This document shows positions 45,536 to 48,670 of a stretch of 64,000 nucleotides of DNA, in pieces. The stretch spans positions 868,001-932,000 of the forward strand of contig NZ_CP119145.1 of assembly GCF_029167625.1 (NCBI RefSeq). The letters run 5' to 3'. The translations under genes and the position numbers were made by a program. Positions within the stretch are counted from its first letter, which is position 1, and the number at the start of each line of letters is the position of its first letter. This DNA is from Streptomyces sp. AM 4-1-1. Lineage in GTDB: Bacteria > Actinomycetota > Actinomycetes > Streptomycetales > Streptomycetaceae. Below the pieces are notes generated by a model, which saw only the letters and a program-made list of their open reading frames with translations, did no database searches and was not told the origin of the DNA.

Positions 45536-46462
45536 TCACGGGGACGGCGAGGACGGCGGTACGTAGAAGCCGGCCAGCATCGTGTCCATGACCTGGCGTT
45601 GCCGGGGCCAGTCGGTGCTCGGTCCCGCGCTCTGGACGCTGTACATGGCCCCGCCGGGCGTGGTGAAGACGCGGTAGATGCCGCGTCGGCGTCCGCCGTC
45701 CGGGAGGTCGTAGCCGAAGTTCACCTCGACGGCCGCGTCCGGTCCTTCGCCGACCGGCCCGAACCCCGTCTCCACGTAGCCCGTCCAGACCGACGCCACC
45801 CCTCGTGAGAAGCCACGCGCCAGCTCGACGGCTTCGGCCTTGAACGACACCGGGTAGATCTCCAGGTACGAGGAGTGGTCCGCCGCTTCGTAGACGACCG
45901 CGGCGGTGTTCGTGCGGTGCGCCCAGTCCTCCGGGACCGCGAGGGTGACGCCGTCGGGGCCCTCGGCGAGGCGGTAGCCGCTGCGCGACACGGTCGGGGA
46001 CGCGGTGGGGAAGGCGGTCGCGGCGGCGGAGGACGCGGCGCCGGACGGTGTGTCGTCCTGTCCCAGCCACACCGCCGCGACGGCCACGAGCACGGCGGCG
46101 GCGAGTCCGGCGGCGGGCAGGGCGAGCCGGCGCGTGCGCGCCGGTCCACCGGACCCGCCCGCTCCCGGATCGCCGACGGCCGGATGTCGCGGTACGGGTG
46201 GTGGTGCCAGCGGGGGCCGGGGCACGGGCGGCGGTGTCAGCGGTGGCCGTGGCCCGGCACCGTCCCGGGAAGCGGGAGCCGGGGTACGGGTCGCTGCCGC
46301 GTCCGGGGGCACCGGTCCTGGCACGGTGGGCGGGCCGCTCCCGGTGCGCGCGCCGTCCTGGTCCGGGTCCGGACGGGGCTCCGGGAACGCCATGGGCGCG
46401 TCGTGGTCCGGGAACTCCCAGCTCTGGTCACCCGCGTTCCACCGGGGACCGGGTGGTGACAC
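45536..46462 (-). CDS. Membrane-anchored protein of unknown function (third gene of the RHIM-like operon)
   Basis: 308 residues. Residues 1-105 are a Pro-rich cytoplasmic region, with one membrane segment (LALPAAGLAAAVLVAVAAVWLG, about 112-133), a Ser/Thr/Ala linker and a folded extracellular domain (about 160-308) beginning GYRLAEGPDGVTLAVPEDWAHR. That phrase resembles the LpqN/DUF-type C-terminal domains of many actinobacterial Pro-rich anchored proteins. GTG at 46462 lies 2 bp after the preceding stop, so it is translationally coupled. Confidence 0.75.
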   Translation of the reverse strand: MSPPGPRWNAGDQSWEFPDHDAPMAFPEPRPDPDQDGARTGSGPPTVPGPVPPDAAATRTPAPASRDGAGPRPPLTPPPVPRPPLAPPPVPRHPAVGDPGAGGSGGPARTRRLALPAAGLAAAVLVAVAAVWLGQDDTPSGAASSAAATAFPTASPTVSRSGYRLAEGPDGVTLAVPEDWAHRTNTAAVVYEAADHSSYLEIYPVSFKAEAVELARGFSRGVASVWTGYVETGFGPVGEGPDAAVEVNFGYDLPDGGRRRGIYRVFTTPGGAMYSVQSAGPSTDWPRQRQVMDTMLAGFYVPPSSPSP

Positions 46463-46464
46463 CG

Positions 46465-46893
46465 TCAGGCTCCCAGCAGGGCGGCCACGGAGGTGGCGAC
46501 CGCGCTCCCCGAGGCGAGGAGTTCGACCACCGGGCCCGCCGAGAGGAGCGCGTCACGCAGCCGGGCGAGACGGCCCGGGGTGACCACGTCGGTGGACTCG
46601 ATCTCGTCCTGTACGGACACCAGTTCCGCGTCCAGCACGGCCACCGGCCCACGGTCCGCCACGCGCGCCGTCAGCCGGGACAGATCGGCTCGCAATTCCC
46701 GTACCGCCGAAAGCAGTTCGGTCACCGCCGCCTCCCGGTCGGCTCCGGACGCGCCGTTGACCGTACCGACCTGGTTGTGGTCGCCGATGGCGAAGGAGCT
46801 GCCCGACACCGAGCCGATGTGCACGGCGCGTTCGGAGGGTGAGGGCTCGGAACCCACGGGCCGCGCGGTCCGCTCCGGTTCAGGGTGTGTCAC
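46465..46893 (-). CDS. Small protein with N-terminal RHIM-like motif
   Basis: 142 residues. Residues 24-42 read VHIGSVSGSSFAIGDHNQV, which aligns without gaps to residues 560-578 of the preceding membrane protein; the core FAIGDHNQV resembles the RHIM pattern (V/I-Q-V/I-G-x-x-N-x-V/L). Residues 52-142 are predicted helical and coiled (REAAVTELLSAVRELRADLSRLTARV), ending in a small-residue tail. I infer an adaptor that meets its partner through the motif. GTG start; overlaps the upstream gene by 14 bp. Confidence 0.72.
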   Translation of the reverse strand: MTHPEPERTARPVGSEPSPSERAVHIGSVSGSSFAIGDHNQVGTVNGASGADREAAVTELLSAVRELRADLSRLTARVADRGPVAVLDAELVSVQDEIESTDVVTPGRLARLRDALLSAGPVVELLASGSAVATSVAALLGA

Positions 46894-48670
46894 CTGTCGA
46901 CTCCTTCTTCCCCGCGGCCCCGTCGTTCGAGGCGCTGACGGTGTTCCTGTCGCCGATCCCGACGGCGCTGTTGTGCACCGACTGGATGTAGACCGCCCCC
47001 TGACCGAGGTGCACGGCCTTGCGTTCGAACTCGGTCGTCTGCCAGCCCGCCTCGTACAGCGCGAGCTGCACCCCGCGTGCCACCCGGTCCTCGACGGTCT
47101 TCAGATAGCGGTCGACGTCCATGGTCTGGAACAGCGAGGCGTCGGGCTCCGCGCCCAGTTCGCGTACCGCCGTGCCGGGACCGGTCGGTGGCTCCCCGGA
47201 GTTCGCGGCGGACAGCGCGTGCCAGCCGCTCAGCAGCCCCCTGGCGAGCGCGAGCAGCGCCGTGCCCAGGTCCCGCGGAGCGTGCGCGAGGGCCTGGAGT
47301 CCCAGCGCGACCGCGTTGTTCCGGCCGAGGCGCTGCCCTACGCCGCCCGTGCCGCGGAACTTCGCCCGCACAGGGCGCAGTACGTGCGGGGCGACCTCCA
47401 GCATCAGCATGCCGCCCTGGGTGTGCACCCGGACGAAGACGGTGACGACGATGTCCTCGTCCCAGCCGCCCACCCGAATCCGCAGGAAGTGCCGGCGCTT
47501 CTCGCCGCCCTCCTCGACCGCGTCCGCGCGGTGTTCCTCGAAGTCGTCCGCCGTGAGCGGCGCGTCCTCGCGCAGGCGCAGACCGGTGGCCGGCAGGAAG
47601 ACGCACTCGTCGACGACGAGTTCGCGCAGCCGGTCCAGGACCGCGGCCGCGGCCTGCGGTGAGCCGTGCGGGGACGGCACGCGCAGCGACTCGACGAGGG
47701 GGACGACGCGGCGCAGGATCTCCTCGTTGTCCACCGCCTGCGGTTCCCGGGCGCCGAGGTCCGTGCGCGGGCGCAGCTCGACCGACAGGTGCCAGGGCCG
47801 GAACGGCATTCCGGCGCCGCAGAAGGGCTTCTCCGTCGCGTACATCACCAGCGGCCAGTGCTGTTCGGCGCGGATCAGTTCCCGGACGAACCGCAGACGT
47901 GAGCCGTGGAGCCGTTCGGCCGGGTCCGCGGCGAGGTCGTCGTACCGCTCGCGGGACAGCGGGCCGGACATGGTCCGGGCCAGCCACTCCCGCCGCAGTC
48001 CGGTGAGCACCGCGAGCAGCAGCAGGAAGGCGAAGACGGTCCAGGACGAGCGCTGCCAGGTGTCGCCCCCGTTGAAGTAGAGCTTCAGCTGCCACGTCAG
48101 CGGCATCATGCGGTACTGGAGGTCGAGTGCCCGGGTGACGCTGTGCACGAACTGCACGAACCAGTTGTCGAGCAGCTGCCAGTTCGCCTGGATCAGCGGG
48201 GTCATCGCCACCGTCAACAGCAGGAATCCCAGGAGCAGTCGGGCGTACATCTGGAGCAGCCAGGCGGGCAGGCGCAGCGCGGAGTTCTCCCGGGACGCCT
48301 CCACGGCCCGCGCGCCGGCGCTCAGCAGCAGGCAGGGCAGCAGCAGACGGGTGAGGAACCAGCCGTCGGTGACGACCGCGGCCACCACCCACAGTCCGGT
48401 CACCGCCGCCGCCCAGAGGAGTTCACCGCGCCTGGCGTACAGGGCGTGTGCGAGGACGCGGGCCGCGTCGATGCCGTAGCTCGGCGCGACGAAGCGCTCG
48501 TGGTGGACGTACAGCTCGTCGATGACCCGGTCCCGGAAGCGCGGGTCGAGGTACACCCCCACGCACAGCAGGCGCCCCGCCTCACTGGTGGCCGGGTCGG
48601 CCGGTGCCTTGACGTGCGTGTGCGAGTCGGAAGGACCCGCCGGCCGAGGAGGAACCGCCGTCTGGTTCAC
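46880..48670 (-). CDS. Multi-pass membrane protein with C-terminal RHIM-like motif
   Basis: About 596 residues. Residues 70-235 contain about four hydrophobic segments (LLWAAAVTGLWVVAAVVT, LLLPCLLLSAGARAV, LLLGFLLLTVAMTPLI, WTVFAFLLLLAVLTGL). Residues 250-555 are a large soluble domain I do not recognise. The end reads VYIQSVHNSAVGIGDRNTV (560-578) plus a disordered tail. The last core, VGIGDRNTV, resembles RHIM/BASS3 amyloid motifs. GTG 48670 has no ribosome site but TATCGT lies 8-13 bases before it, fitting a leaderless start; the frame is open to 48865. Confidence 0.75.
   Translation of the reverse strand: MNQTAVPPRPAGPSDSHTHVKAPADPATSEAGRLLCVGVYLDPRFRDRVIDELYVHHERFVAPSYGIDAARVLAHALYARRGELLWAAAVTGLWVVAAVVTDGWFLTRLLLPCLLLSAGARAVEASRENSALRLPAWLLQMYARLLLGFLLLTVAMTPLIQANWQLLDNWFVQFVHSVTRALDLQYRMMPLTWQLKLYFNGGDTWQRSSWTVFAFLLLLAVLTGLRREWLARTMSGPLSRERYDDLAADPAERLHGSRLRFVRELIRAEQHWPLVMYATEKPFCGAGMPFRPWHLSVELRPRTDLGAREPQAVDNEEILRRVVPLVESLRVPSPHGSPQAAAAVLDRLRELVVDECVFLPATGLRLREDAPLTADDFEEHRADAVEEGGEKRRHFLRIRVGGWDEDIVVTVFVRVHTQGGMLMLEVAPHVLRPVRAKFRGTGGVGQRLGRNNAVALGLQALAHAPRDLGTALLALARGLLSGWHALSAANSGEPPTGPGTAVRELGAEPDASLFQTMDVDRYLKTVEDRVARGVQLALYEAGWQTTEFERKAVHLGQGAVYIQSVHNSAVGIGDRNTVSASNDGAAGKKESTGDTP

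Follow-up and report, generated by a model that had tools for sequence, protein, structure and literature searches.

In a 64,000-nucleotide stretch of the genome of Streptomyces sp. AM 4-1-1 (the window), a three-gene operon encodes a membrane protein and a small partner protein which carry matching motifs, one near the C-terminus of the first protein and the other in the N-terminal part of the second. At the sequence level the two motifs co-evolve in residues as well as in length, without codon-level signs of gene conversion, and in homologous loci the partner is exchanged for proteins of other classes, including known effector types. Together with the absence of a recognizable NLR domain from the Pfam scans, these observations make it probable, though far from certain, that the operon encodes a membrane-anchored, NLR-free signalosome, in which tag-templated (probably cross-beta) assembly would couple the membrane component to interchangeable effectors. 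In our best reading the 142-residue protein of the window occupies the effector slot.

Organization of the operon and its products

The features of the operon are listed in Table 1. Genes 1 and 2 overlap by 14 nt, and the gap between genes 2 and 3 is 2 nt. Loci with room downstream of gene 2 were searched for the third gene, and 60 of the 72 had a homologue within 1.5 kb, in agreement with the proposal of the first-pass annotation that gene 3 is part of the unit.

Table 1. Coordinates of the operon features in the window
Feature	Position	Strand	Basis or remark
Gene 1, membrane protein	46880..48670	-	596 aa from GTG at 48670; ORF listing
Gene 1 membrane-spanning region, residues 82-225, 3-4 helices	47996..48427	-	Hydropathy and AlphaFold2 (AF2)
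Gene 1 cytosolic alpha/beta domain, residues 257-545	47036..47902	-	Possible weak similarity to Bet v1/START/KA1 folds
Gene 1 C-terminal motif, VYIQSVHNSAVGIGDRNTV	46937..46993	-	Translation; near C-terminus of the 596-aa protein
Gene 2, 142-aa protein, putative effector slot, DUF5955-like	46465..46893	-	ORF listing, Pfam, AF2
Gene 2 N-terminal motif, VHIGSVSGSSFAIGDHNQV	46768..46824	-	Translation; inside disordered leader
Gene 2 helical bundle, residues 49-141	46471..46749	-	AF2
Gene 2 hydrophobic C-terminal stretch, residues 122-140	46474..46530	-	Candidate membrane-inserting element
Gene 3, 308-aa protein	45536..46462	-	Pro-rich N-terminal part, one membrane helix (113-131), putative extracellular domain

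An in-frame start farther upstream would extend the product of gene 1 to 661 aa. This protein had zero Pfam matches at E<=1 and 846 homologues at E<=1e-5, labelled, where they have a name, 'hypothetical', 'uncharacterized' or 'large membrane protein' among the matches listed (120 of 846). In its AF2 model (pTM 0.81) helices span residues 69-100, 104-126, 130-162 and 204-235, and hydropathy peaks at residues 82-111, 138-160 and 207-225. The AF2 model of the gene 2 product has block means of 84-97 across residues 51-142, and the leader which contains the motif has pLDDT values mostly below 50; both motifs sit in low-confidence, probably disordered protein ends. The hydropathy of the C-terminal stretch of gene 2 is 1.79, and in 82 sequences its S128 was invariant, L126 and A127 nearly so.

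The match of the gene 2 product to DUF5955 (PF19380; 20.4 bits, E=6.7e-4) stayed under the curated threshold (27.1 bits); at loci L153, L176 and L181 the slot is occupied by proteins scoring 29.7, 29.1 and 41.1 bits. Pfam searches at E<=1 found neither TIR (PF10137) nor PNP (PF01048) in the window's gene 2, unlike in homologous loci, where both families are present. Consistent with the earlier statement that no NLR is encoded here, Pfam found no NLR domain in the three window proteins; neither NB-ARC nor NACHT was matched by Pfam in these proteins or in any of 26 further partners examined.

The motif pair and its co-evolution

Translation confirmed both members of the 19-residue pair. A motif profile (21 positions, 22 rows) was searched against the 7.47-Mb genome, and the only two sites below E=1e-7 were those in the window (2.8e-8 and 7.6e-8), followed by one with E=0.87. 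Both window motifs are among the rows and match the profile by construction, and the informative result is that the genome holds no further matches. The pair thus stands above genomic background, and chance similarity of the motifs was rejected on this search and a comparison with mismatched pairs (see below).

The first-pass annotation had called the motifs RHIM-like. The RHIM core reads (V/I)Q(V/I/L)GxxNx(L/M/I), and the window pair shares a hydrophobic-x-hydrophobic-G-x-x-N core with the RHIMs of mammalian RIPK1/RIPK3/TRIF and with the fungal PP motif. The window cores, VGIGDRNTV and FAIGDHNQV, nevertheless have G or A at the position where RHIM demands Q, and the Pfam RHIM model (PF12721), a 22-position model of low sensitivity, gave no match at E<=1 in the window proteins or at E<=10 in the whole genome. 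Because of the replaced glutamine and the silent Pfam model, the RHIM label overreaches, and membership in the RHIM family proper is not supported. The prediction of motif-templated assembly fared better: at the sequence level, the pair is conserved in orthologues, matched and co-evolving, as such assembly would predict.

Co-variation of the partners was seen in spacing, residues and tree changes. Intra-motif spacing was equal in both partners in 94 of 95 Streptomyces loci (two rows anchored specially, L041 by hand and L100 via an added pattern). On a tree of 90 loci each partner underwent five spacing changes, which fell on the same five branches, four of them to the same length. Mean motif similarity in 90 loci was 55.3 for cognate and 27.7 for non-cognate pairs, and the partial Mantel correlation between the motifs, with both protein bodies controlled for, was r=0.64. 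A control partial correlation, between the C-terminal motif and the last helix of gene 2, was also high (r=0.425), and may stem from clade-specific changes which helix and motif have in common. The cognate motif beat the motifs of the 10 nearest relatives in only 71% of comparisons, and for the tail in the window three non-cognate gene 2 motifs outscored its own (55, 60 and 43 vs 38). The partner motifs match by identity and not by complementarity, which is what stacking requires; matched length changes in both partners are a sharp, testable mark of in-register stacking.

Identity and length matching are also predicted by a finite stacked beta structure. The contact could be an ordinary, non-amyloid homotypic one (a small mixed beta-solenoid or a fixed-size intermolecular beta-sheet) forming a stable complex without templated growth, and the partner in locus L181 has a weak beta-solenoid repeat match at its motif (PF18836, E=0.0018, 18.5 bits; cut-off 30). 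However, the segments are short, proline-free and located in probably disordered ends, like known amyloid signalling motifs, and a constitutive complex would leave the choice of TIR and PNP_UDP partners unexplained. We regard such a contact as rather unlikely. In the extracted motifs no proline was found among 3,710 residues (the extraction pattern itself sets a few positions), vs 76/970 and 146/1,151 in the following stretches.

Adjacent genes can exchange segments, and the motifs within a locus are alike, as would be expected if neighbours had recently undergone gene conversion or segmental duplication without being functionally coupled. The same-codon rates at identical residues, however, were equal in cognate (77.2%) and non-cognate (77.1%) pairs and thus gave no sign of gene conversion, which was rejected on these rates as the source of the match. 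The likeness also survives where gene 2 is unlinked: in two Streptomyces genomes the operon is without gene 2, the single gene 2 homologue found is elsewhere, and its motif is still like the tail encoded by the one membrane gene detected. This disfavoured explanation is therefore highly improbable. A point against our reading is that G012, G024, G151 and G519, four genomes whose membrane proteins have tails, gave no gene 2 homologue at E<=1e-3 in a search which, in three of them, scored 150 of 276-315 first-look candidates.

Partner classes in the wider membrane-protein family

The comparison was widened to 54 membrane-protein loci that have a next gene, the window included, against a background of 2,664 mismatched pairs. 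The tails in this set are diverse, and in 40 of the 54 loci, falling into 17 motif clusters, the next gene matched above the 99th percentile. Among the 14 loci under this threshold, L175 and L198 do carry a C-terminal extension, but beside a neighbour without a match, and in L193 there are just 317 bases past the stop. Of seven homologues lacking a motif tail, five have a next gene, and none of these five matched it (scores 21-43), nor did tail-less L196 (score 22). Low-complexity matching as the sole cause was rejected: 26 of 30 best downstream matches topped the maximum of 200 shuffled tails, in a test that favours the real match by setting the best of several downstream frames against shuffles in that frame only. 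The exceptions were L162, L163, L175 and L182; the 62-residue tail used for L163 was too short, and with 80 residues its cognate score was 88.

In a Pfam scan of 27 partners, six matched CAP12-PCTIR_TIR (PF10137, E 7e-21 to 8e-27) and five PNP_UDP_1, all 11 of them above the 99th percentile. EAD1 was the downstream neighbour in three loci, one above the percentile and two (L172 and L182) below. In PADLOC, PDC-S35 was the related entry for two TIR partners, and 'Effector, PN-superfamily' for two of the PNP ones. The small protein of the window had earlier been taken for an adaptor. Because homologous loci hold TIR or PNP_UDP in its place, an effector fits better, although the three EAD1 would fit an adaptor. 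For the DUF5955-like bundle itself, it is the position in the operon that suggests an effector role.

The partner classes also bear on the direction of signalling. Gene 2 (or gene 3) could be the sensor and the membrane protein the killer, in the manner of Bell/HeLo-type pore-formers switched on via a C-terminal motif. The polarity of the BASS systems is the same: according to PMC7889193, their membrane-targeting Bell protein bears the C-terminal motif and their NLR receptor the N-terminal one. In contrast, TIR, PNP_UDP and EAD1, which occupy here the slot with the N-terminal motif, elsewhere act as effectors or recruit them, and what stays constant is the membrane protein, large and multi-domain. 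Signalling in this reverse direction is unlikely in our judgement. Even less probable is a role of the operon in the envelope, for housekeeping or development, with the motif as a mere tether: gene 3 appears to be envelope-exposed and many Streptomyces carry the operon, but its occurrence is patchy (at E<=0.01, 21 of 61 genomes have gene 2, a count that includes the window's own genome and weak matches), the window's flanking genes are kept in 0 of 80 loci, and immune-type partners occur among the homologues.

Proposed mechanism and related systems

In the signalosome that we favour, gene 1 would end in a flexible cytosolic tail with the short motif, and the N-terminal leader of gene 2, likewise flexible, would carry the matching one. 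A putative trigger acting on the membrane protein would cluster the tails, and these would stack in register into an ordered assembly, most likely of the cross-beta kind known from RHIM, PP and BASS amyloids; gene 2 would be recruited as its motif joins this stack. Recruitment may concentrate or open the helical bundle of gene 2, whose C-terminal helix is hydrophobic, and this domain would probably act on the membrane or bring in a further factor. Since related systems have TIR, nucleoside-phosphorylase-family proteins or EAD1 in the gene 2 slot, the most likely output in these filamentous actinobacteria would be growth arrest or abortive cell death. In the Streptomyces branch, gene 3 would probably add an accessory regulator or sensor. 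With the same tagging principle linking the membrane protein to cell-suicide-type enzymes in relatives, the arrangement looks like NLR-free bacterial immunity wiring.

A broader proposal, for and against which the chances seem evenly divided, is that such NLR-independent membrane-receptor signalosomes are widespread in actinobacteria, with many co-evolving cross-beta tags privately wiring one family to interchangeable death effectors (TIR, nucleoside phosphorylase, EAD1 recruiter and DUF5955 bundle), the last being a new effector class. In the parts of the literature covered, bacterial amyloid-motif signalling is described around NLR proteins, and a membrane-protein family that draws on many motif types and on several classes of effector would broaden this principle. 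It would also hint at a function for DUF5955 and for membrane proteins that number in the hundreds and are uncharacterised, and its co-evolved tag pairs would form a natural library for studying amyloid signalling specificity. No NLR-free membrane-protein tag system was found described in the literature searched, the primary BASS study being outside that search.

Like the BASS Bell-NLR pairs, the system comes from filamentous bacteria and pairs two neighbouring proteins by short matching motifs, C-terminal in one and N-terminal in the other, and the BASS3 peptide VDLRDAKGVQVGDGNVQINRF, as given in PMC8086366, has the hxhGDxN core common to the window motifs. Unlike in those pairs, no NLR partner was found, the C-terminal motif is on a large multi-pass membrane protein, and the partners with the N-terminal motif include TIR, PNP_UDP, EAD1 and DUF5955-type proteins. 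In the fungal system of the PNP_UDP-associated amyloid signalling motif (PUASM), described in PMC9815663, a PNP_UDP effector is wired through a short amyloid motif, similarly to the five loci with motif-bearing PNP_UDP_1 partners; there, however, the receptor is an NLR instead of a membrane protein, and motif and kingdom differ. The six loci with PF10137 partners resemble CAP12/Pycsar TIR effectors, whereas recruitment here would be through the motif. The EAD conflict systems share EAD1 itself with three loci, but EADs are folded domains, in contrast to the pairing part here, a tag of ~19 residues, and the core here is a membrane protein, of which the EAD descriptions consulted make no mention.

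Operon and motif pair in the window

The first-pass annotation described a matched pair of RHIM-like motifs in adjacent genes; both were found at the positions it had given (see table), and they align without gaps over 19 residues. With a motif profile built from 22 rows, both window rows among them, the window pair gave the only sites in the genome at E<1e-7, the next match having E=0.87. In the AlphaFold2 models the gene-2 motif is in a low-confidence leader, followed by a confidently predicted helical bundle with a hydrophobic helix at the end, and the gene-1 product combines helices at its N-terminus, membrane helices and a predicted cytosolic alpha/beta domain; its motif lies in a tail of low confidence. 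The N-terminal start of gene 3 carries a W-x6-W segment (PRWNAGDQSWEF), which recurs in relatives, e.g. RWNAGAQRWEF at locus L057.

Features of the operon in the window
Feature	Product or length	Position	Strand	Remark
Gene 1	membrane protein, 596 aa	46880-48670	minus	
Gene 2	142 aa	46465-46893	minus	14-nt overlap with gene 1
Gene 3	single-pass protein, 308 aa	45536-46462	minus	
Gene 1 motif	19 residues	46937-46993	minus	C-terminal tail
Gene 2 motif	19 residues	46768-46824	minus	N-terminal

Co-variation of the motifs in Streptomyces loci

Among 61 genomes, gene 1 was present in 39 (E<=1e-5, a count that takes in paralogues without a motif tail) and gene 2 in 21 (E<=0.01, counting the genome of the window itself and a few weak hits from other genera). 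Twenty loci from this gene-1 survey and 80 named Streptomyces loci, the best 80 of 322 confirmed stretches from one scan, made up a 100-locus set, in which 95 loci had usable motif pairs; four loci lacking gene 2 and one with a broken frame were dropped. At 72 loci there was room for a gene-3 homologue within 1.5 kb on the downstream side of gene 2, and 60 of them had one. No such homologue was detected downstream of gene 2 in L126, L127, L130, L131, L134 and L136, loci with STFAVG- or ADNSSFAFG-type motifs. The ArgJ, ArgC, NUDIX, NTP-transferase and PhyH genes flanking the operon in the window were seen at none of the 80 loci (best 80 of 322; E<=1e-20, sequence around each locus), which suggests that the three-gene unit moves as a cassette.

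The window core is replaced by clade variants (GNVTLGxHNTV, GAVGIGDHNTI, SAFSVGGSNNTN, STFAVGSHA, ADNSSFAFG, GAFAFGEHGVANN and others), and the two partners of a locus generally carry identical or similar variants. Spacings of 9, 10 or 11 residues separate the conserved strand residue from the invariant glycine. That homologous neighbours keep both motifs and co-vary, as the first reading would have it, was borne out by equal spacing in 94 of 95 loci (L100 was anchored via an added pattern and L041 manually) and by a partial Mantel r of 0.64 after correction for the two protein bodies (p=5e-4); in the sole mismatch, L090, both partners are lengthened, unequally (13 and 11). A FastTree phylogeny built from gene 1 minus its tail (90 loci, 178 branches) has five spacing changes in each partner; all five branches coincide, and on four of them the two changes are identical (hypergeometric p=7e-10, all branches being weighted equally). 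Past the glycine, residue classes changed 13 times in one partner and 12 in the other, with six branches in common. Mean motif similarity was 55.3 for cognate pairs (from one locus) and 27.7 for non-cognate pairs (unconstrained permutation z=18), and against the ten nearest relatives the cognate was ahead in 71% of comparisons. Control partial correlations were -0.20, 0.04 and -0.13, and one control, pairing the C-motif with the final helix of gene 2, was unexpectedly high (0.425). Since identical residues had the same codon at nearly equal rates in cognate (749/970, 77.2%) and non-cognate pairs (21,805/28,268, 77.1%), the likeness is at the protein level. There was no proline in the 3,710 residues of the extracted motifs.

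In S. chryseus and S. albidochromogenes (L057, L062) gene 2 is absent between genes 1 and 3; at the thresholds used each genome has one gene-2 homologue and one membrane gene, on different contigs. The tail and the unlinked gene-2 motif of the same genome have 11 or 12 of 21 residues in common (score 60-67), and these tails share 9-11 with the window and L058 motifs (score 37-47). Profile matches around the unlinked gene 2 (8.5 kb and 6 kb) were limited to gene 2 itself, the 6-kb stretch reaching only about 500 bases upstream of gene 2, to the end of its contig.

Wider relatives and their neighbours

Further relatives of the membrane protein, with tails mostly unlike that of the window, were taken from 20 regions and two genome surveys, one of the class (296 genomes, 48 with a match) and one of the phylum (296 genomes, 12 with a match, 10 already in the class survey). 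Where a tail is present, a matching segment usually stands at the start of the next gene, as in L137 (NNYGHNNSFVHGDNNTTNSGTQ / NDFGRNNSFVTGNNNTTNSGTQ), L141 (IAHHGSGHISSRNSGTQTQGDQSPVNA / VTHHGTGNISVGNSGTLSQGDHSPVNA) and L169 (NSGIVNMGGTNDFTNTAVGDQA / NSGIVNMGGTNSFTNTAVGDQA). In a 42-locus comparison the cognate ranked first among the 42 candidates in 23 rows and 24 columns, and many of the remaining ones are explained by near relatives with like tails. Against 2,664 mismatched pairs with unlike tails, the cognate score exceeded the 99th percentile in 40 of the 54 loci, the window among them, that have a next gene, representing 17 motif clusters, and the maximum in 18. The 14 below threshold comprise five tail-less homologues with a next gene, the likewise tail-less L196, five with some resemblance (L161, L162, L172, L181, L182), L193, with 317 bases after its stop, and L175 and L198, in which a C-terminal extension had no visible match in the next gene.

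The gene after L175 has W-x6-W segments similar to that of gene 3. L193 and L198 (genome G519), membrane homologues from a different class in the phylum, have C-terminal extensions (IINKGIWIGTQNGNMIIGDDGK in L193); no matching gene 2 was seen for either, L193 having little sequence after its stop. A paralogue family of the membrane protein has an own-genome member about 2 kb left of the window (G000:C1:865543-866130); the paralogues L144, L154, L155 and L196 end in ...KADxYDA, without motif tail or matching neighbour.

Partner domains and proposed mechanism

Candidate partners were collected from 46 loci (the 42-locus set plus L192, L194, L195 and L199), and 27 were scanned against Pfam; L138, 90% identical to L137, was outside these 27. 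Matches were to CAP12-PCTIR_TIR (six), PNP_UDP_1 (five), EAD1 (three) and DUF5955 (three above cut-off and five weaker, the window's among the latter), and five had no informative Pfam match. PADLOC related two TIR and two PNP partners to the candidate system PDC-S35, 'Effector, PN-superfamily' and PDC-M60C. Bacterial immune systems employ TIR and PNP-superfamily proteins as effectors, so the slot held by gene 2 is most likely one for effectors.

In-register stacking of two different chains requires them to match in both identity and length, a lock-and-key contact does not, and this favours tag-templated assembly. The motifs very probably pair physically, and this pairing may well be of the amyloid type. 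Clustering of the membrane-protein tails would nucleate tag-templated assembly, probably cross-beta, and the assembly would recruit and activate the gene-2 protein, with cell death or immunity as a moderately likely output; we infer the direction of signalling, the trigger and the role of gene 3.

In the retrieved portions of PMC7889193, PMC8086366 and PMC9815663, the closest known systems are the BASS Bell-NLR pairs, RHIM/PP and fungal PUASM, and a review among them reports BASS motifs, less often, with CHAT or TIR domains too, so that the combination of TIR and amyloid motif is by itself no novelty. We provisionally regard as new the membrane-protein core in the place of an NLR, the PNP, EAD1 and DUF5955 partners in a membrane-protein setting, and the length-matched co-evolution of the motif pair.

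The gene-2 homologue P0163 carries the source label 'IS5 family transposase', evidently a misannotation. Two motif copies were seen in the N-terminal part of some gene-2 proteins (homologues P0207, P0216, P0220 and P0229; loci L173, L184 and L185), and the membrane protein tail of L041 has two tandem copies; such two-copy proteins are reminiscent of the HET-s double repeat.
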